This document shows, piece after piece, positions 3,630 through 26,900 of a stretch of DNA of 64,000 bases. The DNA comes from a virus. The notes beneath the pieces are model-generated. The model saw only the letters and a list, made by a program, of their open reading frames with translations, was not told the DNA's origin and did no database searches. The DNA lies in IMG/VR virus record IMGVR_UViG_3300028394_000053, positions 1-64,000 of that record, one strand, 5' to 3'. Numbering within the stretch: the stretch's first letter is position 1; each line of letters opens with the position of its first letter. A program made the translations under genes and the position numbers.

Positions 3630-3634
3630 AGTTT

Positions 3635-3663: not shown

Positions 3664-3742
3664 CTGAATTTTAAATCAGATAGCAATAGTTTTTCTTTTG
3701 GTATTGAACAATTTGACAGTTGCAGCACAGGACCAGGTCAAA

Positions 3743-6577: not shown

Positions 6578-6888
6578 CTGTTTTTGTTTAGTTCGTCGTG
6601 TTCAATCAACCAGGCTGTCATTTGTTCTTGCCAGCGTTGTTGTGCCAATGTTAGTAGTTCTCGATAATCTACTCTAACAGGTGTATCGTACAAGTCAAGA
6701 AGAACCAAGCCTTGTTGGCCCGTTTCCACGGACGCTGTTAATGTATTGATAAGTTCAGGACCAGCTGACCACATTCCACCGTTATAGGCAAAGGTCAGTT
6801 TGGCTTGATATTTTTCTTTAAGTACACGTCGAGACTGAGCATGTTCAAATCTAGCACGGCCATGTTCTACTAGTTGATTGGTATCCAT
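6574..6888 (-). CDS. Small hypothetical phage protein
   Basis: 104 residues, MDTNQLVEHGRARFEHAQSR onward. The sequence includes RVLKEKYQAKLTFAYNGGMW and LVLLDLYDTPVRVDYRELL, followed by a predicted helix rich in Gln, Glu and Trp. It looks like a compact alpha/beta protein with charged helices at both ends. I do not recognise a named family, though proteins of this look occur near virion genes of T4-like phages. It is the first gene of the coupled minus-strand run 6888 to 3743, and a 72-base gap separates it from the fibre gene upstream. Confidence 0.6.
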   Translation of the reverse strand: MDTNQLVEHGRARFEHAQSRRVLKEKYQAKLTFAYNGGMWSAGPELINTLTASVETGQQGLVLLDLYDTPVRVDYRELLTLAQQRWQEQMTAWLIEHDELNKNR

Positions 6889-6953
6889 AATTGTATTATA
6901 CTACAAAATACGTTGGAAGTCTACTGTTGTTGTGCCAATTTGGTTAGGTGGTA

Positions 6954-6980
6954 GTAGCGGCTACAGTGTAGCGGCTACAG
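6954..6980. repeat. 14-base tandem duplication across a stop codon
   Basis: GTAGCGGCTACAG occurs at 6954-6966 and again at 6968-6980, a perfect 14-base period. The unit contains the small palindrome GTAGCsGCTAC. The stop codon of the minus-strand virion gene (6963-6961) lies in the shifted second copy. Confidence 0.8.
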
Positions 6981-7917: not shown

Positions 7918-7935
7918 TTTTTATTAATTCCAACT

Positions 7936-9336
7936 TTATTTAATTGTTACAATAGCTTCAACCATGCCCACACCTGAATCTAATTTGTCCACAAGTGCTC
8001 GGCCAATTGTGTTGAACGCTGTGGCTTCTCCAGGATTGGCAGATCTTGCAACGCCATGTCCGGCACTGACCAATCGATCGCCTTTGTGTATAACACCAGT
8101 ACATTGTACAGGAACTCGGCCGGTCATTGCAACCGGAGGATGAGTCAAATCAGATCCAGCACCACTATTCATTAAATATGCTGCTCGTGTACTTATGACA
8201 CCGAACACAGAGTCGCTTAATTCTGTTGTGGATCTTGTAATTTCTGCCGATCCGCCCAATTCAACCACGGTACCAGGTTCATACTCAGCATCTGCAGAAA
8301 ATCGTTCTGCAACGTCAGCGTATAAGGCCGTAGTGGAAGTACCAGCGAATGTGTTTGCAAACACAGTGTTAAAATAAGATGTGCTATTACCAATATTGCC
8401 CGAGATATTGCCGCTGGCATTAGTAATACTTGAAATTCGTAATGTATTTCCAGTAATATTACCAGTTCCACTTACAACACCTGCACCAAATAGCACATTA
8501 CCACCAGTTATGTTACCAGTAGCAGATACTATTGAAGTGGTATTGACGGTACCAGTGACACTGATGTTCATGCTGTTGCCACTACCCATAAAGGTAGCTA
8601 CGTTGGCATTACCGTATACTCCAGTCAATTGACTACCATTACCCAAGAATACGTTGGCGCTGACGTTGCCTTGTACGCTTACACCTACATTGCCTTGTCC
8701 CCAGTATGATGGAACACTAGCACCGCCCACACCGTTTGAAACATTGGCCAATTGTAGTCCAGGATTGACGTTGGCAAAACCTGGAATGGTTGTTTGAGGT
8801 GTAAATACTGTGTCTTCACTGATGATACCGACTACATTATTATTGACCACTAACTCTATCACTTTATGAGTTACACTAATACTATCAGTTATCACATTGG
8901 CAAAGGCACCGGTTACACCTGTACCTGCACTAAATTGTGGACCTACCAACAACCAGGTAGCACCAGTCCAGATGTTTACCTGTTGATTTACAGTGTCATA
9001 CCAAAGATCGCCAGTGGTACTATAAACTGATGTGCTAGGAGTTGAGTTTGCTACGACCAAGGCAGCAAGCGATTTCCAGGCCGAACCCATATAAACAGAA
9101 AGTTGCCCAGCGTTTGGAGTATTGTTCCACCAAAGTTGTCCAGTTATTGGAGCAGGTGGTGCCGTATTGAAAGAAGAATTTTCTAACATTCTCATGAAGT
9201 TAGTGTCTAAGAATGCTCCATATCCAGCGTAATTTTTACCTACCAATGTTACAGCTGGATTGGCAGAAGTGTTGATTGTACCGTCTGCTATAGTTGCAAA
9301 TATGGTTCCATCTGTTAGGGTTATTGTATATGACAT
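7936..9336 (-). CDS. Tail fibre protein with C-terminal self-processing-like domain
   Basis: 466 residues. The N terminus (MSYTITLTDGTIFATI), then YAGYGAFLDTNFMRMLENS and TGQLWWNNTPNAGQLSVY, is the usual start of T4-like aquatic phage fibres. The middle consists of GNV/GNI repeats (for example NVLFGAGVVSGTGNITGN), also found in the giant fibre at the other end of the window. From residue 330, LYADVAERFSADAEYEPGTV begins a C-terminal domain that resembles the Peptidase_G2/intramolecular-chaperone type, which trims itself after fibre trimerisation; I did not verify a catalytic residue. A late-promoter-like box lies 20 bases upstream of the ATG. It probably contacts the host receptor. Confidence 0.75.
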   Translation of the reverse strand: MSYTITLTDGTIFATIADGTINTSANPAVTLVGKNYAGYGAFLDTNFMRMLENSSFNTAPPAPITGQLWWNNTPNAGQLSVYMGSAWKSLAALVVANSTPSTSVYSTTGDLWYDTVNQQVNIWTGATWLLVGPQFSAGTGVTGAFANVITDSISVTHKVIELVVNNNVVGIISEDTVFTPQTTIPGFANVNPGLQLANVSNGVGGASVPSYWGQGNVGVSVQGNVSANVFLGNGSQLTGVYGNANVATFMGSGNSMNISVTGTVNTTSIVSATGNITGGNVLFGAGVVSGTGNITGNTLRISSITNASGNISGNIGNSTSYFNTVFANTFAGTSTTALYADVAERFSADAEYEPGTVVELGGSAEITRSTTELSDSVFGVISTRAAYLMNSGAGSDLTHPPVAMTGRVPVQCTGVIHKGDRLVSAGHGVARSANPGEATAFNTIGRALVDKLDSGVGMVEAIVTIK

Positions 9337-9356
9337 TTGTTTATTCGATCCCGTTA

Positions 9357-9364
9357 TATTTATT
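9357..9364 (-). promoter_or_regulatory. T4-type late promoter box (AATAAATA)
   Basis: On the minus strand the octamer AATAAATA fits the NATAAATA late-promoter pattern recognised by gp55-type sigma factors. It lies 20 bases before the ATG of the fibre gene at 9336, a spacing similar to the 18 bases seen before gp6 and before the gene at 36754. Confidence 0.5.
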
Positions 9365-9384
9365 ATTCTGTAGCATAAGCATAT

Positions 9385-10008
9385 TTATGCTCTACTCAAG
9401 TTAGTAAGAGTTTGGATTCGTAACGTGTAATCAATCTGTATTTGACGATTCAAACTTTTTTGCACAGGATGAAAGATTACATGGGTAATTAACAATAAAT
9501 CACCTGCACTGGGTCCAACTTTACATTGCAATCCCAGTTCATCAAACACGTATTCGCCATTGAAATTGGTGCTGTTATCAAAGGCCTGTTGTCCTGCTGG
9601 TTCACCGTAGTCTAGCAAACAGGTCACAATAATGTCGGTGTAAGGTTGTCCTGACGTGTGTACCACAGTCATGTAGTTGTTACCAGGGTCTTGATTGGCT
9701 GCGCTGTTATCATCCACTACTTTAACGTAGGTTTCGTTGTATAGACTTGCGTTAATGCCCACAGTATTGGGGGGCAAATAGGTTATAACTCCAGTAGGAT
9801 CTACTGCGCTACCACCGTTGCCAAATGCCATGTCATAGATAAATCCTCCGCCTTGTACCAAAGATCGGTCGCTTAGAGTACGAGCCATACAGATACTGAT
9901 ATTTTCATAGTGTATGGCATTCTTTTTATCTACTAAAATTTCGCCTGTTCTGGGGTCGTGTATTTTTACAAAACCTTCAATTTTTGTTAGTCCAGGAGTG
10001 ATTATCAT
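9385..10008 (-). CDS. Virion structural protein of T4-like marine phages
   Basis: 207 residues. It starts MIITPGLTKIEGFVKI and continues with the motif HDPRTGEILVDKKNAIHYEN, then ARTLSDRS and GGFIYDMAFGNGGS. The C-terminal half is beta-rich (FDELGLQCKVGPSAGDLLLI, then HVIFHPVQKSLNRQIQIDY). I recognise this as a conserved tail or baseplate-periphery protein type in marine T4-like phages, without a T4 number. Its ATG overlaps the TGA of the 49-residue gene upstream (ATGA), and that small protein carries a copy of the same DPxT...V-K motif, so the pair is probably related in structure and function. Confidence 0.65.
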   Translation of the reverse strand: MIITPGLTKIEGFVKIHDPRTGEILVDKKNAIHYENISICMARTLSDRSLVQGGGFIYDMAFGNGGSAVDPTGVITYLPPNTVGINASLYNETYVKVVDDNSAANQDPGNNYMTVVHTSGQPYTDIIVTCLLDYGEPAGQQAFDNSTNFNGEYVFDELGLQCKVGPSAGDLLLITHVIFHPVQKSLNRQIQIDYTLRIQTLTNLSRA

Positions 10009-10154
10009 GCTCGTTTCTCCACAAATACCTGCTTGGTTTGAGGATCCGAAATCCTTATATGTCCTTGTACTGAAATAGTTCCGGTATCGTTGGGACGACG
10101 CTGTGGGGTTTTTTCAGTAACAGTTTGTTTGGTTGTCTGGTTTTTATCAGTCAT
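10005..10154 (-). CDS. 49-residue protein with motif shared with its neighbour
   Basis: A short gene encoding MTDKNQTTKQTVTEKTPQRR followed by PNDTGTISVQGHIRIS and DPQTKQVFVEKRA. The last 19 residues align with residues 12-31 of the downstream protein (GHIRISDPQTKQVFVEKRA against GFVKIHDPRTGEILVDKKNA). The first half is a basic and Thr/Gln-rich tail that looks unstructured. The TGA stop overlaps the next ATG by four bases, and the gene follows the giant baseplate gene after 46 bases. It may be a small accessory subunit that shares a fold or docking strand with the larger protein. Confidence 0.55.
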   Translation of the reverse strand: MTDKNQTTKQTVTEKTPQRRPNDTGTISVQGHIRISDPQTKQVFVEKRA

Positions 10155-10200
10155 ATTTTATTTAGCTTGTTTTACAGCCCCCGGAAAACCTTGGGGTATT

Positions 10201-13200
10201 TTAATAGTCTATCCAGGTTCCTCTGCGAACTAATATAGTTACAGCAACGCCATCTGGTGGTGCAGTATTCAGTGTGACTGATACTGGGGCTTGATTGGTT
10301 ACAATATAAGCTTCAGCAGGTGTGGAGAGTGGTTGCCAGTAATCAGTATTGCTTATTGCTGTGCCAGCTGGTACATTCTGTTTGGCACTGTAGAAACTGC
10401 CGCTGTTGACAACTATATCTTCAAATGAGTAGGTATTACCAATCACCCATGTAGTTGCTCCTGTTATTCGTAGTCCGCCCACATAAACTTCTACAGCTAC
10501 CGCAAGTGGTTGCCAGTAATCAGTGTTGGCGATTGCTGTGCCAGCTGGTACATTCTGTTTGGCACTGTAAAAACTGCCGCTGTTGATGACAATATCCCCA
10601 GATGTGTAGGTGTTACCAATTACCCAGGCAGTAGTTGATGTGCTTAGAGTGATGTTTGGAGCAGCAAATACTGTAGTGGATCCATTGGCCACGGTGGTGG
10701 TTTCCACAATGTAATTTTGATATTGTTGGCTAAACAAATTATCAGTGCCCATGTTGTAGACTGTTGCTCCATCGATGTGAGCCGTGATAGCCGTACCAGC
10801 AGTTCCTCTCAACAATCCACTAACTGTGTTGTTTGCCAGGTCAATTTCACGGTACATAATTCTTTCAGCACCAACAGTCAACACGCCCCATCGATTTGAA
10901 GCCAAATTTGGAACAGCCAAAGCGCCAGCATTGTCAACATAAATTATGTCATCGGTGGTGCCTAGGTCTTGAGCCAATTCAGTAGTAGTCTCATCATTGA
11001 TGATATAGGTCAATTGTAATCCACGCATGTCCTGGAATATTCTAAAATCAGCTCCGTTGGTTGGACCGCCGGTGGTATATACACGGAAATCCAAGGTATC
11101 AAATTCGCTACCGGGCACCAGTTCTTCTGGAGCATAACTGCTGAATACATCAATGTAGCCACCGCCATCAACATTGATATCAGTTGGACGTGTTCCCAGG
11201 AATGTGTCAAGATACGAACTGGAATACACAGCATCAAGTATGTCAGGATCAGCTATTATATCTTGATCAAAATTTGGAGCCATTACTTGCACACCTGGAT
11301 AATGATCACCTGCAATCAACAATGGCAAACTGAGTCCCAGCATGTTTGGAGTAGGAGTATAATAGCCCATGGTACGATCTACACCACTTAATAAAATAGT
11401 TGCGGTTCCAGTTCCTGTGCCTGCTCCTGTTGCAATGAACGGTGTTCCAACTATGTTTTGAGATGCACCAATCAAAGTAAAATTGGTTGGACTTGTGACT
11501 GTTCCTAAAGAAGTTATGGTATAGGTATTACCAGCCACAATGTCAACAGCGTCCACAGGAATAGTGATATCTGTCCATTGGTCTATGTTAAATGTGGCAC
11601 TTGAAACAGCACTGTTGGCAGACCAAACTAGGTTGTGCCAACGTACCCGATCTCCTTGCGCATAACTGTAATTGGCTTGCCATTCGTATATAGTAGTTTC
11701 ATATTGATAACGATCAAATCGAATTGTAATAGTAAAATTTCTTACCAACTGATTGGTCATGATTGGCACAGCTTGTGCGCCAGTTCCATTACCACCCACA
11801 AATGTTATAGCGGCTGTTGTTGTGTAGCCTGACCCAGGGTCGCTCACAATCACTGATTGTACACCACCTGTGCCACTGAGTGTGGCATACCCACTGGCAC
11901 CATTGCCAAACCAGGACAAGGTAGCTGTTCCGTTTAGGGCTGACCCGGACGTGAATGATGGAGGAATATTTCCTGTGGTTCCAGATGCAGTGACCGTGTA
12001 TAAATTATTGGTTGGACCACTAACATAAAAAATTTGTTGTCCAATAGTATAAACCGTATCAGCTTGCCATTCGGTTCCAAACACCACTTCAGGAACTACA
12101 TTATATCCAGATCCACCAGTTACTACAGTTGCACCGATAATGCTCAAGGTATAATTATTGAACCACGACTGCCAAGGAGTTTCTGTCCATATAGCTGCAT
12201 TTGGAGCGGTGTCACTGACAAATGATTCAACCAAGCTCACAGAGTCGGTGTAAGGGGTTAACACCGGACTTACAAACTGTGGGATTTCAACTGTGTTATC
12301 CCACCTGGCTGGTACGTCAAAGTCGCTCATTGATCCAGGATAGAGATCCAATCCATCATAGACCAAATTAAATGCTAGAGTTTGCACATGATAGGGTTTT
12401 ACTTCTTGTAGATATTGTTCCACAAAAGTTTGATTGTCTTGTTGATACAGCTGATACGCCTCCAGGGCACGCAGTTTATGATCCACATTGATAAAGCTGC
12501 TTTTCATTAACCAGACTGGGGCTGTAAATTCACTGTAGATATATTTGAACATCAATATCAATAGTTCATTGCGATATATCAAAAACTCATTAGTAAACAG
12601 TTCTTGATTAATAGCCTGAATAATTTTTCTAGTTTCAATTGTAGGAGCCTGGTCAAAGTATTGTGCATCATATACTTCGGCCGAAAAACCATAAGGACCA
12701 AGTGCATAATTCCATAGCACAGCATCAAAAGCAATAGTGCCATCTTCGAGTACCACACGTTCCCACCCAGTGTCAATTCTTAAATAAATTTCATATTTTC
12801 CTTGGCCGTTGTTATTGACCTGCACACTGCTGCCAATAGGTGCCTGATTGATACTTAATGCTTGTAGATCGGCTGTGATGGCAACCTGAGCAACAGGCTG
12901 TATTGAACTGTTGTATCCAGGCTGATTCCAGTTGATGTAACTCCAATATAACGATGTATCGTAATTTTGTATGCGAACCAACAAGGTAGTTCGAGTTGCA
13001 GTGATGTCTGTCAAGGGGTCAGTGACCACTTCGTATATGGTCCATCGTCCACCTTGGCTGCTGTCAGTCAAGACCAGATAACGATATCCTAGATTGACAG
13101 CGGCAAGATTTTGATAACCTAACACAGTCAAGTTAGAAACAACTTGATTATAACCAGTAGTACCAGTTATAGTGCGTGCTGTGATAGAGAGACTGGCACT

Positions 13201-16200
13201 GATTGTATATGTTCCTTCTCCGCCAGTTCCGGTTCCATAATCCAAGATTGTGACTAGACCAGGAATGCCGGTGCCGCTTATGGTTTGTCCTAAGGCAAAC
13301 ACTCCAGTGATTGTGCCAGCCACAGTCAATATGTTTCCAGAGATAGTGGCCGCTGTAGCTGTTGCTGTTGTGGCATTTGGAATACTTTCACTGCTGTTCA
13401 ACAGATTGAAAGTGCGTAACTCTGAGATAGGATATTGTGCCAGTATAGTATTAGCTCGGCCAAGATAGTTTTGTAATGCTGTATATCTGTTGACAAACAT
13501 GCTCTGCCGTGGACGGAATTGTACTCCGTAACGCAGACCTGGACTCAAGAATGGATCTGGAACCAAATTACCAGATACGTCTTCTCCACACAAACTGTCT
13601 TGTAATTTTTGATAGATTGAATCAGTAACAAAGCTGTCGGCTTTGCCTTCATTTACAAATTGATATTCAGTATGGATGTTAGCATTAGCACCACCAATCT
13701 GACGTTCATATTCAATGTGTAAAATTGTATCTTGAGCACTGATTAATCCTACCGCATTGTATAGTGCCACAGTACTAGAATTTAGTGCGGCTATATAAGG
13801 TAGACCGCTGCCAAGTGGATTGGCAATATAACTGGCAATGGCTGTGGTGCTTAAATTTTTTCCATTGGCTGTGTCTACAGTGTTGATTCCCCGTACCCAA
13901 TAATAGTAATAGCTGGCAAACACTCCATTGGCAGTCAGTATCGATGACACCGTATAACTAGTGGCACTTAATGGAGTTCCGATGCCAATATAACTAGCAG
14001 GAGGAACGTCACTTTGAATCCATTGATAAATGTCTACACGACTACCTGGAAATATCTGGCCCCAGCGTTTACTTGCGTACACAATATCATCTTGGTTGGG
14101 ATTGATAAATCTCACAGTGTCAGTGTCCCACCAAATTTCTCCCACATGAGCAGATCCCCAGGCAGTGCCGTTGTTGTGTATGGTTCCTGTATTGTAATTG
14201 GCTGGATCTACTGCACCAATGTAATTGATATTGCGAGCAGCCACTCCCAGTATCTTGCCTTGTAGTGGATCAATAAAGTCGTAATAGGTTTGAGTGCTGT
14301 TTAACAGTTTATCAAAACTGTATACACTATTCATCAGCTCAATGTTGACCACTGGCTGTTGTTCATGTATTACTGCCCAACTTGGCAAATTATTATTATT
14401 ATCAAATATAGACATTGACCCGTAGTTTGTGTTACTACTAGCTCCAAGATCTACACCAGGCGCACCCACAATCAGACGTCCATCCACATAGTTTACTGCT
14501 GTGCCAAATCGATCTGCAATACTTGTGCCAGCCTGTCCTGTTTCAATAAAAATAAGAGAATTCGTACTAGGTGCAGTTGCAAACACAACAAAATAAGTAG
14601 AAGAATAATAAGCGTAGTCGTAAGTGTCTGGTCCTAGGATTAAGAGCTCATTGTTTAAATAAACTTGTGGCGGATTTGTAATAGTATTATAAACAGAGTT
14701 TATATTATAAGTTCTTGTGGTTCCATCACCGACAAAAGTAAAAGTATCCAGTCGAGGCAATTGATAAATTTGTTGACCAAATACCAATTGTCCTGTGTTT
14801 GACACTGATGATTGAGCACTTGGCAAATAATCAAATGTATACGCTACACCACAGTTGGATACCGGATTACTAAAGAACGTGCTGTTATCGTCAACAATGG
14901 TTTCGCCACCATCAAAGCTCATGGCTTCATACACACTGCCGTTTGGTGCACCTATCACGATGTTGACACTGTCAGTATTGATACTGATTGCACTACCAAA
15001 AGAACTGTATCCAACTGGATTTGGACTGTATAGTGTTTGTGTATAGATAAAAGTATTAAATCCCAGTTCCGCAAATGCTGATCCTGTTCCGCCCACTCCA
15101 GGTAATACTGTGAGTTTGTTAAATTCTGGGGCCGATGAATTGTTAATAGTTGACAAAATCAATCGTCCTGTGACCACTGTTATTTTAACTCCTATTGCTG
15201 GAGCAGATACAAATTCAATTTGTTGAGAGGTGTTATTATAGGTGTAGCCAGAGCTTAATGCATTATTGACATAAACTACCGGGGTTGATCCAGCGGTACT
15301 ATACACCGTTCCTACAAAAAAGATTTTTGTAATACCATCCCCGGTGAATTCCAAATCAGCAGTCAATGAGGCTTGAACATTGGGTATGACAAATGATGCG
15401 TCCCAGTAGGCGCTTGAAGAACTAGGTACCTTCTCTGAACTTGATGCGGTAGCAATATAACAAACATAATTATAAATCACTCGATCATTGATATAATATT
15501 GTTTTGTAATAGACCATGCTACAGGACTGATAGCTGTTGCTAATCCAGACACAGTATTGTTAGGACTGTTAGGAACAGCAACTTCAATGTTGTTGATACG
15601 AATTGTAGTACCAGGAGTCAGGGTTGGGTTGGCAATAGTGCTGACTGTCACGCCATACAGTCTACTTTGATTGGCTTGTCGTTCAACACTACCATCTTGT
15701 TCAATGACATTGGTGTTGCTAGGAGCTCCGCTATAAAGACTACAATTATTAGAACACATGGCCACAGCATTTCCAAATCGTGCACCATTTTGTGGAGCCT
15801 GAGAAACTATTTTTTGTACAAACTGGAATTCATTGGTTTCAATTTCAATACTGTCTCCAATGGTCAGTGTAACAGAACTTGCTAATTCAATGTTGGACCC
15901 AACCACAGAGAACTGTCCTGGCACATATTGGGCCTCGTTGGTTAAAAATACATCATTGTGTAGTACCGAGATTGGATCAATTGACGTGCCAGGAATGGCA
16001 TAAATGGTCTGAGCGGTATCTGTTACCACATATCTAACTACACTACGATCAAACACATAGGTCGATCCTGCTGTCACAGTATTGCCTGCGGCATTTACGG
16101 CTGTGTCGTTTTGGGTACCAACAATTATACTTCTTCCGTCAGTGCTGGTTGCTAGGCTGGTGCCAAAAACAGCGTTGGCTGACAATGACAGACCAGCAGT

Positions 16201-19200
16201 AGGAAGAGTTGTAACATACTGCCAGTATGTGCCAGCAGTCACATTAATTACAGCGGCACTGGCAGGTTCTGATCCTGAATTAAAAGTTACATTTCCATCA
16301 TCAGAAAACACATAATCTATCCAAGGACGCTGAATTATTCCGTCAACAGTAATAGTACATGAATTGATATTTGTCGCAGTATTACCAACGGTGGCTGTAT
16401 ATAGATATGGTTGTAAATCATAGGTAGGATCACCCGATCCAGTACCGTCAAAAGATTGGAAAGCTCGTCGAGCGATCTCTAACTGAACACCAGCTGGCGG
16501 TGCTGTAGCAAACACCACGTTAGAGCTATCTAAGGGTATGGTATAATCAGCTGGATAAGATTGTGGTTGATTGTCAAGAATTACCGCTAATTGTTCAGGA
16601 TATGCTGGGTCGATAATCAAGTCAGGTGACCAGGCGTATGCTGTGCTAGTGCCATCGGTTGTGTAAGTCACTGACTGTTCTGGGATTTCTACCTTGCCGT
16701 AAGCATAAACTAAATTTTCAACTGGTGCACTAACATACATCCATCTTTCATCTTTGCTCATTGCTACTGCCGAGCCAAATGCTACAGCATTGGTTGTAAC
16801 TGCATTACTACTCAAGGCTGTTAATAGTTGTGTTTGCTCGTAATTGTTACTGCCAGGAATTTGATATACCACAGAAGCATATCCTTGACCACTGCGGCTG
16901 GTACTGGCACCAATGACTGCCCAATTGTTATCGCCCCATTCAAGACTATTTCCATATCCAGCTACATCTTCAGCTGGCAATGATAATACAATGTTGTTGG
17001 CGTATGTGCCAGCGTTGCCAGCTGACGCGATTCGACGATAGGTGTATACTGCGCCACCATCAGCGGCACTTGGACTACCTACTAGTAAACTATAATGATT
17101 GGTTGATTGTCCAATGCTGGTTCCATACAAACTATTGGTTTGAGGAGTTACAGCATTTTTACTTTCAGTCAAGGTGAAAGGCGCTTGTTTTTCTAATACT
17201 TCCCAATGGCCGGATCCGTTGTCATCGACCCAGGCCCGAGCACCAGGCACCAATGCATTTGCATATGGTAACGTGGCAACGTCACTGGCCTGACTGACTC
17301 TCATTGTTTGTAAAAACCATCCTAGGCCATTGCCAGTCAAGGTGGTTTGATTGTTATTGGTAAATGCATAGGCAATTATGATACTGGTCGGTGATGGTCG
17401 TCCTAGCACACGGTATACACCATCTACTCCGTCGGCAAAATAGCGTACAATAATCAAGTCACCAACAGCTAGAGTTGTAATCTGGCTGAACTGTGCAATA
17501 CTGGTACTGTTCAAGTTGTCTGTTATCTGGGTCAGTTTTCCAGGAATTTGAGTGCATCTATAGATATTCCAGTTATAAGGATTATCTCTAGCTACCCAAA
17601 TACTTGTGCCAGTTCCTACTGTGTTAAGATTGGCGGCAATAGCAGATGGGTCATCCAAGGTATAAACCGTTATATCCACATCGTCGATGTTGACATATCC
17701 AGCTGATGGCAATGCTGTGTTCTGGCTGGATGGATATATGGTTGGTAATATATCAGTTGATGTGATATTGTAGCTTTCACTCCAGAGATTGTTCAATAGC
17801 ACAGTTTGATTGGCCTGACTTGTTTGCCCTGGCAGAATAATTTGTACTGTGCTCGGGCTTCCAGTCAACTTGGCTTCATTGAGGTTAATTTCAAAATAAC
17901 TTCTATTACTGTTGGCACCATATGTTCCTATCAGCACACCCCAGGTTTCGTAAATCTGATAGTTACCGCTTTCTTTGGTCAAGTTTACACGAGTAAACAA
18001 GTCTGTGGCTCTTGTGGTTCCTTTGACTTTGATAAACTGTTGATAAAGATTGACCTGTGTAACATCATCAAGATTGAGATCGGCCATGTACTGCCGTGGT
18101 GTAAATCCAATCAAGTTATAGGCCAGCAAATCATTGTTGTTGTTTAAATTAGCAGTTTGTGTGTTGTAAGTGTTGGCCAATTGGTCAGCTTTGTTGGCCA
18201 GGTTAGGCAATAGTCCTTGCTCGATCAGAGCATAGTTACTTTTGAGCCAGTCATTGTAATCAAATTTGGTCTTTGGTTGTACCAGCCCACTGGCTTGCCA
18301 ATAGGTATTTTTATAGCGTACAATGTCACCTTTGGTATATCTCAAATTTGGATTCCATGCTTTGACATTGTTTTGATTTAGGATAAATCCTTTTGCATCA
18401 AGAGTGCCGTTCCATTCAACTGTATTAAATGCATTTAGATACATTCTGCTTTGTCTTGCTCCAGTTACTGGATCATAAATCAAATCATTGAATATATCGA
18501 CATTGTCAAAGATTACAATATTTTCATAATCAGTAAACCGTAAGTTCAAGAAACTGATGGCCTGATTGGCTGTAGGTTCTGGATTTATCTTAAAGCTATT
18601 TCCTTCACGCTGTATGATCAAATCTCTTGTGGGTATTGTCTGACGATTTTGATCCAGTAACTGATTTTCAGGACTATAACTATAAATGTCGTCAACGACT
18701 GATTCCAATCGATATGCTGTGAGTTGCCCTGCAGCCGGATTAAGATTGATCAAGGTACCGGTCTGCCAGCCTTGTTGACTAAAGTACAAGAACTCTTGAG
18801 CCATTTGTGGCCAATTTAGTGTGTAACCATTTTCCAATTCAGTAAAGGTCATACCTTGCGATTCAAGATACTGTCCATAACTTAATAAAAAGTCCACCAT
18901 CATGGTACGATTAGTAAACACATATCCATATGGAATGTTGGTCACATTGTTGGTGTACTGTGCTGGCACTTGTACTGTGGCACCACCGGCTGATACCGTT
19001 TGTAATTTTCCGTTTACTGCGCTGACTATGATTGGAAAGTATGGCTGGTAACTGCCATACCCATAAACTGCCCAACCGTTTTCCACAGTTTCAACTACCA
19101 CACTACTGTAGGTAATTTGTGCGTAGGGTTGATCTCGATAAACTAAAAGATTGTAACTTTCTGGAGGAATCTGTAAAGATTCATTTTGACTGTCTGGGCT

Positions 19201-22200
19201 GGACTTTTCAAGATACACTTCAAGATATTGTTGATCAGTCCAGGCTGCCATACGATAACATAACCGTACATCAAGATTGGCCAAATCAGTAGTCAGGGCT
19301 GTTGTGCTGTTGATACCACGTTGTTGATTGTAGTCAATGATCCAGTTGATATAGCTGGCTTTGCTGACACCATTGCCATAGATTTCTAATCCGTTGCCAT
19401 CAAGTCTGTAACGATTGTTGTAGAGATACTGTTCTAGTTCAGCATTGTAACGATAAAGATCTCGATCAGCAAACAAGGCAAAAAATTCAGCTGGTCTAGT
19501 TAGAGCCAACAGGCGCATTACTGCAAATGGATAACTTGAACTCATCCACCATGACGCTTCAACTGGACCACCGTCGCCTACTGTCCAGCTCTTGCGGAAG
19601 TCATTGGGATTGTACAATCCCACTACACTTTCAAGTGGCGGTAGTAGTTCTCCTAGGCTGTTGACTGGAATGACTGTGGTCAGCCCAGGTCTGGCAAAGT
19701 TGGGTTTGATGTATGGTGCTACTGGATCTGCCACAAGTCCTTGTTCAAGATCGCCCCATAGCACCAGGTTATCACTGGTATACGGAACTGGACCATAACG
19801 ATCTTCCCACCAGATGGGTTTTTCAGTAAAGCCCAACATTTCCCATGGAGTAGTGTTTGGTGTCATTGTATCGTAAAAATAACGATAGATGCCGCGCCAG
19901 GCTCCTTGATCTAGTACCGCATTGTTGATCCTGTTTCCAGCTGTGCTGTAGTTGTAGGTAAATGGGTTATTGGTCAAGTAATCTTGAGCGGTATAATCTA
20001 GTTTGTTTAGACCCACCCAGATTAAAAAGTCTTCGCCTAGGATCTTGGTTATTTCGGCTTCGGTATAATCTGTTGTGCGGAAGAAACCTGGTAACACTTG
20101 TTCCACAGTGATTGGAACAGGATTGCCATCTGTTTTAAGATTACTATAAATTCTGTTTTCAAATTCTAACAAGACCTGATCTCTAATGTCACCAAATGCT
20201 ACAGTAATGCTGCCATCGTGTCCTTGTATTACTGGCGTGGGTCTCACATAGTCAGTACTGATGTAAATACGCGGAATGTATTTAGGATACAAACCTAGCT
20301 TGGTAGGAGTGTTTGGTACAAAATTTCCGTAAGTAGGATTGTATTCGTTGATAGTAACTACATCTCCTACCACTAACGGAATTAAAATAGTCAAGGTAGG
20401 AGTTCCATCTCCAACCACATATTCCACGCCACGAGCGAGTAATCGATCGTTTACATACACCAACAGCCCCAAGTAATTAGACGTAGTAAAATCGTAAGTC
20501 TGTACAGTGTTAAATCTTGCTATGGTAATTGGTGTTACAGTGGTCGAGTTCGATGCCACTGTGGTTCCAGTGGGCAACATATCACTCCAGTAAAAAGGAC
20601 TGATGCTGGTGTCGCCTGCATTGATAATAGCAATTGACTGATCTACAATTTGAGGTATAGTTAAATTGACAAAGTCGTTTGTTATTGAAGTGTTTAATAA
20701 TAATGATTTAAACTTGATATACTCTCGGCTGTTAAACTGTAAAGCATTAAAAATATTGTATTCTTCACTGCGTAAAAAATATCCGGCCAAGGTAAGCGGA
20801 GCACTTTGTTGCAGTATCTGTAGACCATAAGGAACAATGTTGCCAAGGTCGCGACTGTTGTTGTTACCAATCACTGGTCCTTCAAGATTGATTAAATTTT
20901 GTCCAATGGTACTGTAATGATTTCTTGCAGTGCCCAGAGTAAACTGGTTGCTGTTGCCGTTGAATGGATTGTTTTCTAAGTTGACGGGCACTTGATAAAA
21001 TGCTGTGGCGCTTATTTGATCACTTAGCACTTGTATTTCTACTAGATCACCAACCACATAAGGCCGACGCAGAGTGATTGTTGTGGTTGTAGCCGTTGTA
21101 GTATACGAATAGGTGTAGTCACCTGTTGCGGTATCGTAGGGTTCTAAGAAGTTGGCATTGACAAATATCTGTATGGCTGGAACTACGGTATTGGCGTTGA
21201 CTGCTAGGTCTAATTGTAGTGGGCGGCCATCGTAGGCAAATCTAAACTGTTGTCTAATTTGACTTTGTACCGCAGCATCTTGCCAGCCAATTTCTCTTTG
21301 GAAAACAATTCGATCTTGATACTGTCTTACAAACCCTGTGCTAAGTGCTGTGGTAAATCCTTGGCTGTTGGATGTGTAATTAAAACTGTCGCTGTACAAA
21401 TTGTTATCAAATACTATGTCACCAATGTTGGAAAGATTAAGATAGGATAATGGAAATCCTAAAACTACATCATTTGATCCAGTACCTACAGCATAGCTGA
21501 ATAACTTACTACCAACAAAGTTACTACTTGGGTAGGTAGATTGATTGCCAAAACTTACGCCACTGGCATTGTAGATGTTGAACAGTGGAGCTTGATTTAC
21601 TGAAGTTTTTTGTTGTGTTTGAAGCCAGTTGACTCCGTCAAAGTAAAAACTGACACCGGTGAGTGTATCACCATCCAGGCACACAGTTGTTTGATCATAG
21701 ACCACAGTTGCAATGGGCACTAGATTGATAATTGGTTCTGGGATCAGCGGAGGTATTGTGTCTGGTGTAATAAATTCAACTTGATAAACTTTATTACGAA
21801 CTGCAAGATCTTCATCACCAGCAAAAATTATAGTACTACCTTGAACTACTGTATAACCGTCGGTAATAAATTCCTCTTGGCCTTCAACTGTTGTCAAGGC
21901 GTCCTCTTGAGAAAAGTCCACAATGTTGACCGGTTGCAAACCTTGCGTTCCAAAGTCAAATAATCTAGTTCCTGCTCTAAATTCCAATATCGGGCGCTTG
22001 GCCCGAAATGCTTGATCTAGCACCGGAGGATTTGTGTCTGAGTTGTATTGAGCTGTTTGTTCAACCACATCTACATGAAACCATCTATTGCTTCTTGACC
22101 AAGGATTTAGATCTGGGCCGGCTCTATTAATCGTAAGATAATCAGGCGCCACAGGAGATCCTGGAATATAAGTTTCAGGAGTTACAAAATCTGTAACTGG

Positions 22201-23985
22201 CAATAGTTGTATAGCAGTTCCAACGCCTTCTACATAGTATTCATTGCCCGAATAGGTGTCTGGCACTGTTATGCCTGTGAATAAAACTTTTAGTCCATTG
22301 GTAAATGTCACCCCATTGGGACTGGTATAATTAGTTTTGCCAATTATATCATCTATTTTGAGTTCAGCATCAACAGTAACATCTACTAATTTTATTACTC
22401 CGATCATGGTTGGATCTTGACTATCTTGATAATACAATATGTCTTGCACAGCAGTCAACGCCGGCATTGTTACAAAGAAACCAGAACTGTTTTTATACCA
22501 CCTAGTGCTGGCATATTGGGTTCCAAACAATACGCTACACTGTGTCAAATTGGGCACTGACAAAATACTAGTGAGAGATATGTATAATCTCCCGTCTACG
22601 TCTGGCACATAATTTATCAACCATATACCGTATTGCACAGCAGGATTTGTTATTTCTTCTAGATTACTAAATGTAGCTGCGTCATATGGCTGAGGTGGAA
22701 CATCATATTGGCCATTTACTATCCAGCTGCTGGAATTTGGAAAAAAGACAGTACGTCCATTGAGATTGGTTATTCCGTCTATGCCATTGGGATTGCTGTC
22801 TAAAAACGTATCCACATATATATTGTTGATCTGATTGAAACCAAGATTAACGACTAGATCTACTGTGCCAGGAGGTTGATTTGGAATTGATCCAAGTTGC
22901 GGCAGGTTATAATAAAAACTTTGTTCTGTTGCTGTAGGAGTATTAAAAGTTACAATACCAAGGTCAATGCCGTTATTGACAACACCATATACATCTCTGC
23001 TAGTAATGTTGGGAGTAGCAGGTATCACACCATTTATTCCCGGACTGCTTTGTATCCAAAAATCAGGACCTGTTCCATCCACAGCATCAACAATGTCAAA
23101 TTGCCCACGCATGTTGAATTCAGTTGAACTGCAATAGTACAAGGTATCCGGAGCATCTTGCGGAACTGTAAATGTGATTAGTCCAGTAACGGAGCCATTA
23201 CGAGAGACACCATTGTTGTATTGATTAATAGAACCAAAGCTGAGTTCTGTTTTGATATAAAACGGCAATGGTGCCGACAACGACAAATTGAATATATAGG
23301 TATTGCCACGCACCAGGCTCAATGTTGGATTGCTGTCGTAGTTGATGGTCCAGGCGGTGGTACCGTTGTTGGTCACACGATACTGTACGGTAACTTGATC
23401 ATTTTGTGCTATGTTAAAATTATAAGATCCTTGACGGGCTAAAGTAAGTGTTGGGTTGTTGCCGCGCACTCCAGAAAATGTATAGTATCCGTTGCTGTTG
23501 CGAGTTACTGTGTAGTTTTGAAATGTAGGAACTCCTGTGGCACTGACTGTGACTGCGTCTGGGCCACCCGGAACCCAGTAATATTGTGCATAATTTATAA
23601 ACTTGTCAAAGTCAACAAATGGATCCCAAGTATAGTAATCACTCTTGTACAGATCAGATGGGTTATTGACCACTGCGCCTTGTAAAGCCAGGGCATCATT
23701 GATTCCAGGATAGGTAATAGCATCAATGACCTGACGAGTATTGTCAGGATTGATCTGACAGACACCGGGCTCCAGTTGATAGTTGTTGCGTACCGCAGTG
23801 GGTTCTACCACGTAACGATCATTAGCATTTACTCCAGGACCAATACGGCGACCAATAAATCCTTGACTCTTTTTAAATGCTGGTTCTTGTATTAACTGAT
23901 CCAGTGTTGCGGCCAAAAACTGTTGGTTGACTGGAGTCTGGAATATCTCTGGAAGAAAGTCTACTGAGCGTACATTGTTGGCCAT
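10201..23985 (-). CDS. Giant multi-domain baseplate protein (gp7 position), 4594 residues
   Basis: The gene fills 13.8 kb and follows gp6 with a TAATG stop-start overlap, the place of wedge protein gp7 in T4 (about 1030 residues), so this version is over four times larger. The N terminus (MANNVRSVDFLPEIFQTPVN) is the conserved start of these giant marine T4-like proteins. I see, in order: a cupredoxin-like domain near residues 215-300 whose metal ligands are mostly lost; many copies of a VYVNG...Y...F..AP..G..I.I beta module; six segments with the Trp...Tyr..GD.V...Y pattern of CBM5/12 carbohydrate-binding modules (near 1875, 2820, 3970, 4100, 4450 and 4510); and seven FG-GAP-like repeats between about 2290 and 3197, for example FGSAVAMSKDERWMYVSAP. 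The C terminus carries a near-identical tandem module pair. It is likely a baseplate component with adhesion functions; individual domain functions are inferred from pattern only. Confidence 0.85.
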   Translation of the reverse strand: MANNVRSVDFLPEIFQTPVNQQFLAATLDQLIQEPAFKKSQGFIGRRIGPGVNANDRYVVEPTAVRNNYQLEPGVCQINPDNTRQVIDAITYPGINDALALQGAVVNNPSDLYKSDYYTWDPFVDFDKFINYAQYYWVPGGPDAVTVSATGVPTFQNYTVTRNSNGYYTFSGVRGNNPTLTLARQGSYNFNIAQNDQVTVQYRVTNNGTTAWTINYDSNPTLSLVRGNTYIFNLSLSAPLPFYIKTELSFGSINQYNNGVSRNGSVTGLITFTVPQDAPDTLYYCSSTEFNMRGQFDIVDAVDGTGPDFWIQSSPGINGVIPATPNITSRDVYGVVNNGIDLGIVTFNTPTATEQSFYYNLPQLGSIPNQPPGTVDLVVNLGFNQINNIYVDTFLDSNPNGIDGITNLNGRTVFFPNSSSWIVNGQYDVPPQPYDAATFSNLEEITNPAVQYGIWLINYVPDVDGRLYISLTSILSVPNLTQCSVLFGTQYASTRWYKNSSGFFVTMPALTAVQDILYYQDSQDPTMIGVIKLVDVTVDAELKIDDIIGKTNYTSPNGVTFTNGLKVLFTGITVPDTYSGNEYYVEGVGTAIQLLPVTDFVTPETYIPGSPVAPDYLTINRAGPDLNPWSRSNRWFHVDVVEQTAQYNSDTNPPVLDQAFRAKRPILEFRAGTRLFDFGTQGLQPVNIVDFSQEDALTTVEGQEEFITDGYTVVQGSTIIFAGDEDLAVRNKVYQVEFITPDTIPPLIPEPIINLVPIATVVYDQTTVCLDGDTLTGVSFYFDGVNWLQTQQKTSVNQAPLFNIYNASGVSFGNQSTYPSSNFVGSKLFSYAVGTGSNDVVLGFPLSYLNLSNIGDIVFDNNLYSDSFNYTSNSQGFTTALSTGFVRQYQDRIVFQREIGWQDAAVQSQIRQQFRFAYDGRPLQLDLAVNANTVVPAIQIFVNANFLEPYDTATGDYTYSYTTTATTTTITLRRPYVVGDLVEIQVLSDQISATAFYQVPVNLENNPFNGNSNQFTLGTARNHYSTIGQNLINLEGPVIGNNNSRDLGNIVPYGLQILQQSAPLTLAGYFLRSEEYNIFNALQFNSREYIKFKSLLLNTSITNDFVNLTIPQIVDQSIAIINAGDTSISPFYWSDMLPTGTTVASNSTTVTPITIARFNTVQTYDFTTSNYLGLLVYVNDRLLARGVEYVVGDGTPTLTILIPLVVGDVVTINEYNPTYGNFVPNTPTKLGLYPKYIPRIYISTDYVRPTPVIQGHDGSITVAFGDIRDQVLLEFENRIYSNLKTDGNPVPITVEQVLPGFFRTTDYTEAEITKILGEDFLIWVGLNKLDYTAQDYLTNNPFTYNYSTAGNRINNAVLDQGAWRGIYRYFYDTMTPNTTPWEMLGFTEKPIWWEDRYGPVPYTSDNLVLWGDLEQGLVADPVAPYIKPNFARPGLTTVIPVNSLGELLPPLESVVGLYNPNDFRKSWTVGDGGPVEASWWMSSSYPFAVMRLLALTRPAEFFALFADRDLYRYNAELEQYLYNNRYRLDGNGLEIYGNGVSKASYINWIIDYNQQRGINSTTALTTDLANLDVRLCYRMAAWTDQQYLEVYLEKSSPDSQNESLQIPPESYNLLVYRDQPYAQITYSSVVVETVENGWAVYGYGSYQPYFPIIVSAVNGKLQTVSAGGATVQVPAQYTNNVTNIPYGYVFTNRTMMVDFLLSYGQYLESQGMTFTELENGYTLNWPQMAQEFLYFSQQGWQTGTLINLNPAAGQLTAYRLESVVDDIYSYSPENQLLDQNRQTIPTRDLIIQREGNSFKINPEPTANQAISFLNLRFTDYENIVIFDNVDIFNDLIYDPVTGARQSRMYLNAFNTVEWNGTLDAKGFILNQNNVKAWNPNLRYTKGDIVRYKNTYWQASGLVQPKTKFDYNDWLKSNYALIEQGLLPNLANKADQLANTYNTQTANLNNNNDLLAYNLIGFTPRQYMADLNLDDVTQVNLYQQFIKVKGTTRATDLFTRVNLTKESGNYQIYETWGVLIGTYGANSNRSYFEINLNEAKLTGSPSTVQIILPGQTSQANQTVLLNNLWSESYNITSTDILPTIYPSSQNTALPSAGYVNIDDVDITVYTLDDPSAIAANLNTVGTGTSIWVARDNPYNWNIYRCTQIPGKLTQITDNLNSTSIAQFSQITTLAVGDLIIVRYFADGVDGVYRVLGRPSPTSIIIAYAFTNNNQTTLTGNGLGWFLQTMRVSQASDVATLPYANALVPGARAWVDDNGSGHWEVLEKQAPFTLTESKNAVTPQTNSLYGTSIGQSTNHYSLLVGSPSAADGGAVYTYRRIASAGNAGTYANNIVLSLPAEDVAGYGNSLEWGDNNWAVIGASTSRSGQGYASVVYQIPGSNNYEQTQLLTALSSNAVTTNAVAFGSAVAMSKDERWMYVSAPVENLVYAYGKVEIPEQSVTYTTDGTSTAYAWSPDLIIDPAYPEQLAVILDNQPQSYPADYTIPLDSSNVVFATAPPAGVQLEIARRAFQSFDGTGSGDPTYDLQPYLYTATVGNTATNINSCTITVDGIIQRPWIDYVFSDDGNVTFNSGSEPASAAVINVTAGTYWQYVTTLPTAGLSLSANAVFGTSLATSTDGRSIIVGTQNDTAVNAAGNTVTAGSTYVFDRSVVRYVVTDTAQTIYAIPGTSIDPISVLHNDVFLTNEAQYVPGQFSVVGSNIELASSVTLTIGDSIEIETNEFQFVQKIVSQAPQNGARFGNAVAMCSNNCSLYSGAPSNTNVIEQDGSVERQANQSRLYGVTVSTIANPTLTPGTTIRINNIEVAVPNSPNNTVSGLATAISPVAWSITKQYYINDRVIYNYVCYIATASSSEKVPSSSSAYWDASFVIPNVQASLTADLEFTGDGITKIFFVGTVYSTAGSTPVVYVNNALSSGYTYNNTSQQIEFVSAPAIGVKITVVTGRLILSTINNSSAPEFNKLTVLPGVGGTGSAFAELGFNTFIYTQTLYSPNPVGYSSFGSAISINTDSVNIVIGAPNGSVYEAMSFDGGETIVDDNSTFFSNPVSNCGVAYTFDYLPSAQSSVSNTGQLVFGQQIYQLPRLDTFTFVGDGTTRTYNINSVYNTITNPPQVYLNNELLILGPDTYDYAYYSSTYFVVFATAPSTNSLIFIETGQAGTSIADRFGTAVNYVDGRLIVGAPGVDLGASSNTNYGSMSIFDNNNNLPSWAVIHEQQPVVNIELMNSVYSFDKLLNSTQTYYDFIDPLQGKILGVAARNINYIGAVDPANYNTGTIHNNGTAWGSAHVGEIWWDTDTVRFINPNQDDIVYASKRWGQIFPGSRVDIYQWIQSDVPPASYIGIGTPLSATSYTVSSILTANGVFASYYYYWVRGINTVDTANGKNLSTTAIASYIANPLGSGLPYIAALNSSTVALYNAVGLISAQDTILHIEYERQIGGANANIHTEYQFVNEGKADSFVTDSIYQKLQDSLCGEDVSGNLVPDPFLSPGLRYGVQFRPRQSMFVNRYTALQNYLGRANTILAQYPISELRTFNLLNSSESIPNATTATATAATISGNILTVAGTITGVFALGQTISGTGIPGLVTILDYGTGTGGEGTYTISASLSITARTITGTTGYNQVVSNLTVLGYQNLAAVNLGYRYLVLTDSSQGGRWTIYEVVTDPLTDITATRTTLLVRIQNYDTSLYWSYINWNQPGYNSSIQPVAQVAITADLQALSINQAPIGSSVQVNNNGQGKYEIYLRIDTGWERVVLEDGTIAFDAVLWNYALGPYGFSAEVYDAQYFDQAPTIETRKIIQAINQELFTNEFLIYRNELLILMFKYIYSEFTAPVWLMKSSFINVDHKLRALEAYQLYQQDNQTFVEQYLQEVKPYHVQTLAFNLVYDGLDLYPGSMSDFDVPARWDNTVEIPQFVSPVLTPYTDSVSLVESFVSDTAPNAAIWTETPWQSWFNNYTLSIIGATVVTGGSGYNVVPEVVFGTEWQADTVYTIGQQIFYVSGPTNNLYTVTASGTTGNIPPSFTSGSALNGTATLSWFGNGASGYATLSGTGGVQSVIVSDPGSGYTTTAAITFVGGNGTGAQAVPIMTNQLVRNFTITIRFDRYQYETTIYEWQANYSYAQGDRVRWHNLVWSANSAVSSATFNIDQWTDITIPVDAVDIVAGNTYTITSLGTVTSPTNFTLIGASQNIVGTPFIATGAGTGTGTATILLSGVDRTMGYYTPTPNMLGLSLPLLIAGDHYPGVQVMAPNFDQDIIADPDILDAVYSSSYLDTFLGTRPTDINVDGGGYIDVFSSYAPEELVPGSEFDTLDFRVYTTGGPTNGADFRIFQDMRGLQLTYIINDETTTELAQDLGTTDDIIYVDNAGALAVPNLASNRWGVLTVGAERIMYREIDLANNTVSGLLRGTAGTAITAHIDGATVYNMGTDNLFSQQYQNYIVETTTVANGSTTVFAAPNITLSTSTTAWVIGNTYTSGDIVINSGSFYSAKQNVPAGTAIANTDYWQPLAVAVEVYVGGLRITGATTWVIGNTYSFEDIVVNSGSFYSAKQNVPAGTAISNTDYWQPLSTPAEAYIVTNQAPVSVTLNTAPPDGVAVTILVRRGTWIDY
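10328..10637. repeat. Tandem duplication of a CBM-like module at the giant protein's C terminus
   Basis: Bases 10328-10457 and 10505-10637 are near-identical in the coding strand of the giant gene. Both encode WVIGNTY, then DIV-NSGSFYSAKQNVPAGT, then NTDYWQPL. The shared stretch includes a long identical block around TGCCAGCTGGTACATTCTG. The small number of changes points to a recent duplication or to gene conversion keeping the copies alike. Confidence 0.85.
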
Positions 23986-26900
23986 TAAATTACTCCACTA
24001 CCAGGTGCAGTTTGTAAATTTGTGCTGGTGAGTGCGGTAATAACTTCTACATCGTTGACTGTGGCACCATTGACAAATATTTGATTTGGAGCAGATCTTA
24101 TTTCATACAAGTCACCAAAGCTCTTTTGTGGATCTAAGGGAACCAGGACCACGCTGCTGACAATGTCTCCAATCTGTTGATGTATATAGGCCGCAAGTTC
24201 ACTGAAGTAAAATGTATCTCCAAAGTTCCATGCTGCCAAATCAAAATAAGTTTCCATTGTGGCCACCACAAGATTGCGTATTTCACTATTGCTGGCTGTG
24301 CTCTGGCCGTTCTGGATAACTTTGATAGTGGCCCGTAGTGCAACATCAGCTTTGCGACCAAACAAGGGCTGGAAGTCGACGGAATTCAAAATCAAATTGT
24401 CTGAAATCATCTTGTAGGTATCAAGTCCGGCGTAGGCCGTGTTTAATTGATCTATAGTAGGCGGACTGGGTTCTGACACTGTGCCGGTAACATCTCTTAG
24501 CCAGTTTTGATAGGAGGTATAATATTCATTAGTGACCACATATACATCAATGATATTTGTGCTACCTGGGTCAATACGATTGGTCAGGGGACTGTTGTGT
24601 CTGTATTGAAAATACAAATCTTGTCGACCAATTCTGGCTACAAAAGTACTATTGACTGTGAGTATTCTTACACCAGAGCTGTTTAATTCTAATGTGTAAA
24701 AAATTTGGTCAGTAATAGGTCTAGGTTGGCCATTATCATATGTAAGATATTGATTGTATGCATAGAATACCTGTCCTATGTTGTATTGATCTAGCACCAC
24801 CAATATTGTGTCCTGGGTGGGATACTCGCTGTTGACTATGCCATTTTGCACCAAAAGATATCTTTGTAAATTGTCAAAGTCCACAGTCTGTTGGAAGAAT
24901 ACCAATTTGTTATTGGGACTCACTGCAGGTGCCACAAGATTGTCAAAAAAGTCTGGATCAACAGGAACAGTTCCACCGGCGCTGGTTTCAAAACTGACTT
25001 CTACCTGGAAGTCATCTGTGAGTCCATCAGTTAAGACTGGTTGAGCAATGATGGGCAATCTAGCATCTTCAGGCAAGGGATAGTTTGTATCGGGTTCTGA
25101 ATTGATTTTGAGTATGTTTACATAATCACTAATCACAGTGCCAGTGCGACTGTCATAAATTGGATCGCTGGTGTAAAAGAAGAATCTTGTTTCTGCCACA
25201 CTACCAAAGAAATAATCCAAGGATCGTGATATTACAGTATAGTTTGCACCATTGGTGGTACACTGTATTAGCCAACTGGCATCAATATTGGTGCCAGATG
25301 TGTTCTGTGCGTTGGTTAAACTGAATTCGGCATTTGTGTCTAGGTTACTGCTGGTAATCAGGTACCAGGTGGCTGTAAGATTATCATACCCTAGACCAAA
25401 ATTTTGATTTTGATAAATTTGATTTACAATATCTTGTTTTAGACTGGTGGGTATATCTGTTACAAATAACGGAATAACTTCTACGGGTATTGCACCATTT
25501 GGTACATAGGTATTCAACACCACTGGACCTGTGCCGTCGGGTAAATTTCCTAGCCCGTCTGCAATACCTGCTAGATATACCGCAGTGGGACCTGCCCACA
25601 ATACCATTTTTTGATTTGGCTGTGTTGCTGAGCCTGCTTGCAAACGGTTCTCTGCATCAAAGTAATAGCCACTGGGTGGAATAAATTTTACCAGGCTACC
25701 AACTGTGATATACTTGGCATTGTTGCTGGCATACTCACCAATGGGAACTGGTTGTCCTGCACTGTTTTCAAAATAGCCTGTGGCTTCGTTTGTTATAACT
25801 GTGCTGAGATGCCAAGTATATTGATACGAGGCCAGCTGTGGTCTTGGACGAAAATTAGCATAGTAAAACTGTTGCATACCGGCCTTGGCCAACAATGGAT
25901 TGAGTTGATTATATACCACATCGCTGATGTCGTTGATACTGAGCCAACTGAATAAAAATGCCGGTGTTAAATTGCTTTCATACAAGGCACCATCGCTGGC
26001 AAAAATATTAGTGCTGGAATATTTTCCTGTACCATCAACTAGGTCAAGATATCTGCTGGTACCAATGCTGGCACGATTTACCGCTGTGCTTTTTAGTATA
26101 CTGTTGTACTGTGTAAATGGAAAATTACTATAGTCTTCGCCGTTGACCATTCTGTTTTGTGTATAGTATTGTGCAGGAGCACGTTGTTTGATTTCAGCAA
26201 TGGTTTCTCTAGACTGGGCATTGGTCACTGGCTGAGTAATTCCGCAAGTGAAGGTCAGTGTTTCAATTTGCCCAGTACGACTCACATAGCTGATGGGGAT
26301 CTGTACGCTTTGCATTTCCTGCGGATTGATAATATAAGTCAATCCATTGCTGGCTCTAACATAAGTTCTAAATGTGCCAACAGGGATAGTACTGAATATG
26401 CCGTCACCAAAATTCAAAGTGATTTGATCATTTACTCGACTGGCAATACTGTAGATATTTTGTGTGCCTACGGCCAACTGTTCAACTGCGGCTGCATAAA
26501 CACTTTGCACTGGTCTCCAAAAAGTGCTGATATTACCCACATTATCCAATTGATACAACCACACATCGGTATTATTAACGCCTTCAATGTTTATATTGAC
26601 CGCACGATTTGTAATTCTTTCGGCCAAATTAAAGTCTTGATTTTGTAGCGTACCTTGCTTGAACAAGAAAAAGTACCCGGTGTTGGCACTAGCAAAGCCC
26701 AATTGATCGTTACGGAATAAAACATTGAATCTGCCAATAGGCAACGGCGGCGGTTCGTATATGTAATCTTGTCCTACTGCGGTGGCGTTGACCACTTCAA
26801 AAGGCATGTTGACTCCATCAACTGTGGCAGTATATGGAATCACTGGTAAAAACCCTGGAACAAGATTGATAGTGTATTCTTGTGTGCCAACTCCAAGGAT

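Follow-up and report, generated by a model that had tools for sequence, protein, structure and literature searches.

In the accessible text of PMC4901313, phiKZ gp131C is a seven-bladed propeller at the baseplate periphery, its function being unproven, and propellers are also reported in the phage receptor-binding proteins (RBPs) phi11 RBP (five-bladed) and PRD1 P2. The accessible text of a 2024 prasinovirus paper describes a virus-encoded FG-GAP protein in Mantoniella tinhauana virus 1, presented as maybe the first virus confirmed to possess FG-GAP domains (PMC11467894). Here we describe a predicted seven-bladed propeller of FG-GAP units, integrin-alpha-like in type, within a giant virion structural protein of 4,594 residues coded by the first 64,000 nucleotides (the window, by which we mean this entire stretch) of a 95,862-base virus contig, IMG/VR record IMGVR_UViG_3300028394_000053. 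Like phiKZ gp131C and phi11 RBP, for which a receptor-binding role is proposed, this propeller belongs to a protein of the phage tail tip or baseplate; those two are not termed FG-GAP or integrin-like in the accessible text and by that description are set apart from the ring discussed here (PMC4901313). With phiKZ gp131C, a baseplate propeller of seven blades is thus already known from phages, and what appears new is the FG-GAP integrin-like type, its embedding in a giant protein, and the socket that holds it; no description of a phage FG-GAP propeller was found in the open-access literature under the terms used.

The giant gene is an open frame on the minus strand (positions 10201 to 23985 of the window), and across its full length the product has exactly seven matches to the pattern [FY]G.[AS][VLIM], at residues 2287, 2344, 2403, 2607, 2737, 2996, and 3160. 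These seven units are recovered again by a combined FG...GAP pattern, which in 5,000 whole-protein shuffles averages 0.03 matches and never exceeds 2; both patterns were written post hoc with the segments already in view. The Pfam family FG-GAP_2 (PF14312; cut-off 23 bits) matches with 28.9 bits in the whole giant and 43.5 bits in a 988-residue region, with the best stretch at residues 2602 to 2645, in blade 4. An earlier note on this DNA, prepared from the letters alone, had counted seven FG...GAP segments, and the count holds by pattern, by shuffling, by the FG-GAP_2 profile, and by conservation in relatives; because two of the seven units start with YG, the note had given only the later halves of two segments. 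Other results count against the repeats: a stretch-wise FG-GAP_2 search of the record returns a single match, below the cut-off, at positions 14404 to 14517 (blade 7), the FG-GAP family PF01839 has no match in the record, and leave-one-out profiling across the seven blades gives positive scores to five of them, missing blade 2 and scoring blade 7 at -0.5 bits, from which we take the blades to be only weakly alike.

Structure prediction supports a seven-bladed propeller of the integrin alpha type, with four-stranded blades in a closed ring. The AlphaFold2 model of residues 2238 to 3225, built from 125 aligned sequences, has a predicted local distance difference test (pLDDT) score of 87.5 and a predicted template modeling (pTM) score of 0.88. 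Foldseek comparison of this model with the PDB fills ranks 2 to 50 with integrin alpha chains, and in VIA-align, which re-examines Foldseek's own candidates, every one of the 50 entries listed is an integrin alpha chain (Z 36.8 to 40.2), superposing over 349 to 374 residues at 2.5 to 2.9 Å with 17 to 21% identity. In most of these alignments model residue 31 is paired with integrin residue 1 and the span runs from 31 to about 968; this start, together with a strand at model residues 34 to 39, fits an N-terminal strand that likely closes blade 7. The earlier note had proposed an integrin-type propeller and a structure prediction over about residues 2280 to 3200, and the model bears out the proposal, with neither fewer than six blades nor an open ring. 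Its extent of about 2290 to 3197 is approximately right, if slightly short, the predicted ring occupying residues ~2268 to 3205 (positions 14371 to 17184, minus strand).

Several results weigh against the integrin-type assignment. The Foldseek template modeling (TM) scores to integrins are at most 0.37 and the root mean square deviations mostly about 15 Å or more, although we attribute the low scores to the inserts. The first Foldseek rank is held by a cyanophage A4 tail chain (9k09_U), set aside with a TM score of 0.09 both ways. In a sequence-profile search, integrin alpha-IIb (E 0.012) ranks below a non-propeller chain (E 0.0068). Integrin alpha chains carry calcium-binding DxDxDG-type loops in their C-terminal blades; the calcium-binding motif is absent from the ring of the window and occurs in 10 of 148 rows of relatives, by our reading never in the loop between strands 1 and 2. 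The ring is like the integrin alpha propeller in its seven FG-GAP blades and in superposing over the whole propeller, and unlike it in having no calcium motif, in holding big modules inside blades 3 to 5, and in being part of a phage virion protein. It leads into phage core sequence, and no beta subunit, legs, or membrane anchor would be expected with it. Integrin ligand tripeptides give no signal from which we draw meaning, with RGD not present in the giant and KGD (residue 1885) and LDV (residue 1571) both outside the ring.

The architecture of the ring was read from the order of the modeled strands and the positions of the FG glycines, all coordinates being on the minus strand. A short N-terminal strand (residues 2271 to 2276, positions 17158 to 17175; the probable closing strand of blade 7) precedes blade 1 (residues 2287 to 2334, 16984 to 17127) and blade 2 (2344 to 2388, 16822 to 16956). 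In each of the next three blades, an insert appears to separate the third and fourth strands. Blade 3 has strands 1 to 3 at residues 2403 to 2432 (16690 to 16779), an insert at 2433 to 2586 (16228 to 16689), and its fourth strand at 2587 to 2593 (16207 to 16227); blade 4 has strands 1 to 3 at 2607 to 2653 (16027 to 16167), an insert at 2654 to 2711 (15853 to 16026), and its fourth strand at 2712 to 2726 (15808 to 15852); and blade 5 has strands 1 to 3 at 2737 to 2772 (15670 to 15777), of which the third is least sure, a partly low-confidence insert at 2773 to 2978 (15052 to 15669), and its fourth strand at 2979 to 2985 (15031 to 15051). Blade 6 (2996 to 3073, 14767 to 15000) is followed by a fourth insert (3074 to 3159, 14509 to 14766), which is largely of low confidence (pLDDT <50 at model residues 862 to 896 and 900 to 915), and then by strands 1 to 3 of blade 7 (3160 to 3195, 14401 to 14508). 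With a mean of 84% gaps in the alignment of relatives, the fourth insert is nearly private to this phage. The earlier note had placed other domains between the blades, which by this strand order is correct only for residues 3074 to 3159, the remaining three lying within blades 3, 4, and 5. In relatives, the inserts of five of 50 members match PF03906, the T7 tail-fiber N-terminal domain, in a Pfam scan.

The ring is conserved in a clade of related phages. Full-length BLASTP shows a conserved core up to about residue 2165 and from about residue 3199, with a variable stretch in between, and tblastn with the giant's cores reaches the jumbo phages PA5oct, Atu_ph07, Phosso, SCTP-2, Vibrio phage 2.275.O, and RaK2, among others. 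IMG/VR scans with the two cores each provided the best-scoring 80 of more than 560 relatives, whereas a direct IMG/VR scan with the ring alone recovers only two loci, both 100% identical. Counting the named phages, 157 rows had both cores, with 139 distinct inserts. Strict motifs number exactly seven in 44 of the distinct inserts, eight in two, six in 26, five in 26, one to four in 35, and none in six; these last are L089, a metagenomic relative, and all of the six named phages except Phosso, which has one stray match. The strict motifs undercount, as is evident from the ring alignment (A3), for which 147 fragments were reduced to 124 at 92% identity, with L001 to L008, L010, and L089 left out, and 125 sequences were aligned. 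The FG glycine of blades 1 to 7 is present in 123, 125, 119, 118, 122, 125, and 124 of the 125 rows, respectively, and persists down to about 24 to 28% identity with the window. All seven FG dipeptides (an aromatic or aliphatic residue followed by glycine) are found in 98 rows, five or six in 26, and four in one. Pfam scanning of 50 of the 125 members finds FG-GAP_2 in 46 and PF01839 in one. Conserved ring positions are mostly blade glycines and aromatic and small residues. In every one of eight relatives examined, identity is lower in the blade scaffold (49 to 66%) than in the core at residues 1221 to 2142 (66 to 82%) and 3206 to 3553 (61 to 79%), which supports a faster divergence of the ring than of the neighboring core.

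Computation also supports the view that the propeller is a cassette inserted into the giant, with a conserved core element on either side. The ring of the window is flanked by a core hairpin (residues 2246 to 2266, positions 17188 to 17250) ending ..GARAWVDDNGSGHWEVLEK and by a core strand (residues 3201 to 3213, positions 14347 to 14385), PSWAVIHEQQPVV, at which the conserved core resumes, both on the minus strand. L089 keeps both of these flanking elements, joined by a short linker with no blades; its giant frame reaches the end of a contig of 19,154 bases. In a quick core tree of 63 rows (those with core identity below 52%, every fifth row among the others, L089, and the six named phages), L089 is the sister of a propeller carrier, L142 (Shimodaira-Hasegawa-like approximate likelihood ratio test support, 100), nested within the propeller clade, although the tree gave long-branch warnings and the letter make-up of L089 is odd. 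This nesting implies at least two changes; with the named phages taken as the outgroup, these would be a single gain and a single loss.

The giants of PA5oct, Atu_ph07, Phosso, SCTP-2, Vibrio phage 2.275.O, and RaK2 share the core on both sides of the site, and none has the ring there, the site holding other content or hardly any. Among these six, 116 to 1,448 residues separate the end of the first core from the second. In Atu_ph07 and Phosso the propeller site is filled by long glycine-rich repeat stretches (L004 and L006, giant residues ~1650 to 3200), and in RaK2 and Vibrio phage 2.275.O it is short. Searches by tblastn with the ring of the window (E ≤1e-5) or the distant ring of L163 (E ≤0.01) find no match in named phages among 50,697 records, a set from which near records were possibly left out. 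The earlier note had regarded homologues without the repeats as grounds for rejecting the propeller; such homologues do exist, namely L089 and the six named jumbo phages, but what they are missing is the whole cassette and not single repeats.

The giant is a virion structural protein by its PHROG assignment (phrog_10938, E 1.1e-291), and the record of its PA5oct relative carries an electrospray ionization tandem mass spectrometry (ESI-MS/MS) note. It adjoins a gene for a gp6-like baseplate wedge subunit (23985 to 27434, minus strand; phrog_10646 and phrog_219, baseplate wedge subunit), beyond which is a small baseplate wedge subunit gene (27480 to 27854, minus strand; phrog_43, E 7.6e-13). The giant gene thus directly follows the gp6-like gene, which is the position of gene 7 in the T4 order 6-7-8, and annotation or position also puts a gp6-like gene beside the giant in all but one of the six named phages (PA5oct, Atu_ph07, Phosso, Vibrio phage 2.275.O, and RaK2); in SCTP-2 the neighbor is labeled as a hypothetical protein. 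No sequence kinship of the giant to T4 gp7 was found with hhalign, probabilities being ≤0.4% with both shallow and deeper profiles (the latter using 70 of 130 and 70 of 128 sequences). A short match recurring near T4 residue 718, with a probability of <1%, was set aside. Designation of the giant itself as a baseplate wedge component, which derives from gene order and the PHROG labels of its neighbors and not from gp7 kinship, is accordingly less secure. Comparison of the giant with the PDB by sequence gives nothing up to E 1, and the core after the ring (residues 3199 to 3960) is modeled by AlphaFold2 with a pLDDT of 86.0 and a pTM of 0.63.

Other features of the giant and its surroundings are noted here in their own right. 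Residues 1876 to 1897 (positions 18295 to 18360) weakly match the chitin-binding-type family CBM_5_12, at 25.5 bits against a cut-off of 26.2, and the core profile A1 also reaches chitinase A1 (1ed7, E 0.014). Close to the C-terminal end (residues ~4480 to 4594) are two near-copies of a stretch that starts TTWVIGNTY and includes, further on, GDIVxNSGSFYSAKQNVPAGTAI, a duplication that looks recent. Downstream of the tail cluster, positions 1692 to 3629 code for a 645-residue protein with a radical S-adenosylmethionine (SAM) PHROG match (E 2.2e-9).

FG-GAP proteins are also coded elsewhere in related phages. A search of 16 records finds FG-GAP_2 in 10, with 42 matches in Phosso and two in Atu_ph07, and no matches in PA5oct, SCTP-2, Vibrio phage 2.275.O, RaK2, the L089 contig, or the L086 record; L086 belongs to the propeller alignment, so the search overlooks some members. 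Most of the Phosso matches are within two giants of 3,161 and ~3,692 residues. In this Sinorhizobium phage (L176) the two are neighbors (1839 to 11327 and 11401 to 22479), labeled hypothetical and carrying many FG-GAP_2 repeats, one scoring 178.6 bits. The Agrobacterium phage Atu_ph07 (L177) codes for a 392-residue 'hemagglutinin' among its tail genes (11019 to 12200; FG-GAP_2, 65.4 bits), and frames of 823, 800, and 507 residues located elsewhere in the L090, L123, and L144 records match PF01839 above the cut-off; some of these phages may hold additional FG-GAP proteins. In BFVD, similar predicted folds are listed for uncultured Caudovirales, nucleocytoplasmic large DNA viruses (NCLDVs), Atu_ph07 (the hemagglutinin), and cyanophage S-TIM5, and automatic 'FG-GAP repeat' labels on uncultured phage proteins exist (e.g., A0A6J5S3H5). 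As far as these listings show, the FG-GAP proteins of other viruses are separate proteins, unlike the ring, which is a cassette within a giant of a phage baseplate cluster. The ring similarly differs from Pfam FG-GAP_2 members at large in being embedded in a 4,594-residue phage protein, the family name being a sequence label with no tested function.

The integrin-like fold, the placement in the baseplate cluster, the cassette behavior, and the faster change incline us, by a modest degree, to a reading in which the ring is a host-contact module for adhesion or receptor binding. The rigid core of the giant would be part of the baseplate region and would grip the ring by the hairpin on one side and the strand on the other, displaying it outward; a face of the ring, with its loops, would bind something on the host surface or in the surface layer around it at adsorption, and the small modules in blades 3 to 5 may alter the contact surface. 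Some observations tell against host contact. Loop variability is nearly even (2.09 to 2.38 bits), with no single candidate binding face, and relaxed constraint could be an alternative cause of the faster change of the ring. The scaffold is not the least conserved part of L012, in which the C-terminal end (residues 3901 to 4594) is 57% identical and the scaffold 63%, and in L095 residues 148 to 530 equal the blade scaffold at 50% identity. The model of the core after the ring has no PDB match at E ≤0.001 (best VIA-align Z, 7.0), although families outside the listing could still match.

Standing close to the host-contact reading is one that we consider possible but rather doubtful, in which the ring is a structural docking hub, holding a baseplate or fiber protein or spacing the wedge, and never touching the host. 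Propellers commonly act as docking platforms, and this ring is located mid-protein, within the core, and not at a terminus. The T7 tail-fiber N-terminal domain attaches the fiber to the tail, and the PF03906 matches in the inserts of five of the 50 members are to that domain. The ring can be absent, however, as it is from the six named jumbo phages and L089 while the remaining core persists, and its faster divergence relative to the core is unlike what an essential assembly interface would show. It is improbable that the ring is a degenerate remnant, acquired once and now a passive filler at a tolerant insertion site: its loss in L089, the variation in site length among the six named phages, and its faster divergence would all be consistent with this, but FG glycines are retained in 118 to 125 of the 125 rows at all seven positions, even at the lowest identities, and confidence in the predicted fold is high. 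An enzyme-like propeller, such as a glycan hydrolase or lactonase, is most improbable of all, for although two of the 50 members weakly match the Lactonase family PF10282 (best E 0.0018) and a cell-degrading role is speculated for phiKZ gp131C in the accessible text of PMC4901313, the 50 structural matches listed are without exception integrin alpha chains and include no enzyme, and no catalytic set was noticed among the conserved positions, though no dedicated search for one was made.

Extending the host-contact reading to the socket, we tentatively propose, with less assurance than for the module itself, that the site is a point of host-range exchange in a large clade of uncultivated T4-like jumbo phages, with the integrin-alpha-like ring as a swappable host-contact module and with other modules, or nothing, in the sockets of other lineages. 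A fixed socket in which a module is present, absent, or replaced would give a defined place for studying how host contact changes in large phages. A conserved and confidently modeled phage FG-GAP case would also extend the claim made for a prasinovirus, as worded in the accessible text (PMC11467894). If the ring does bind the host, then these phages would share an adhesion fold with animal integrins, mounted on a central structural protein of the tail tip and not on a fiber.

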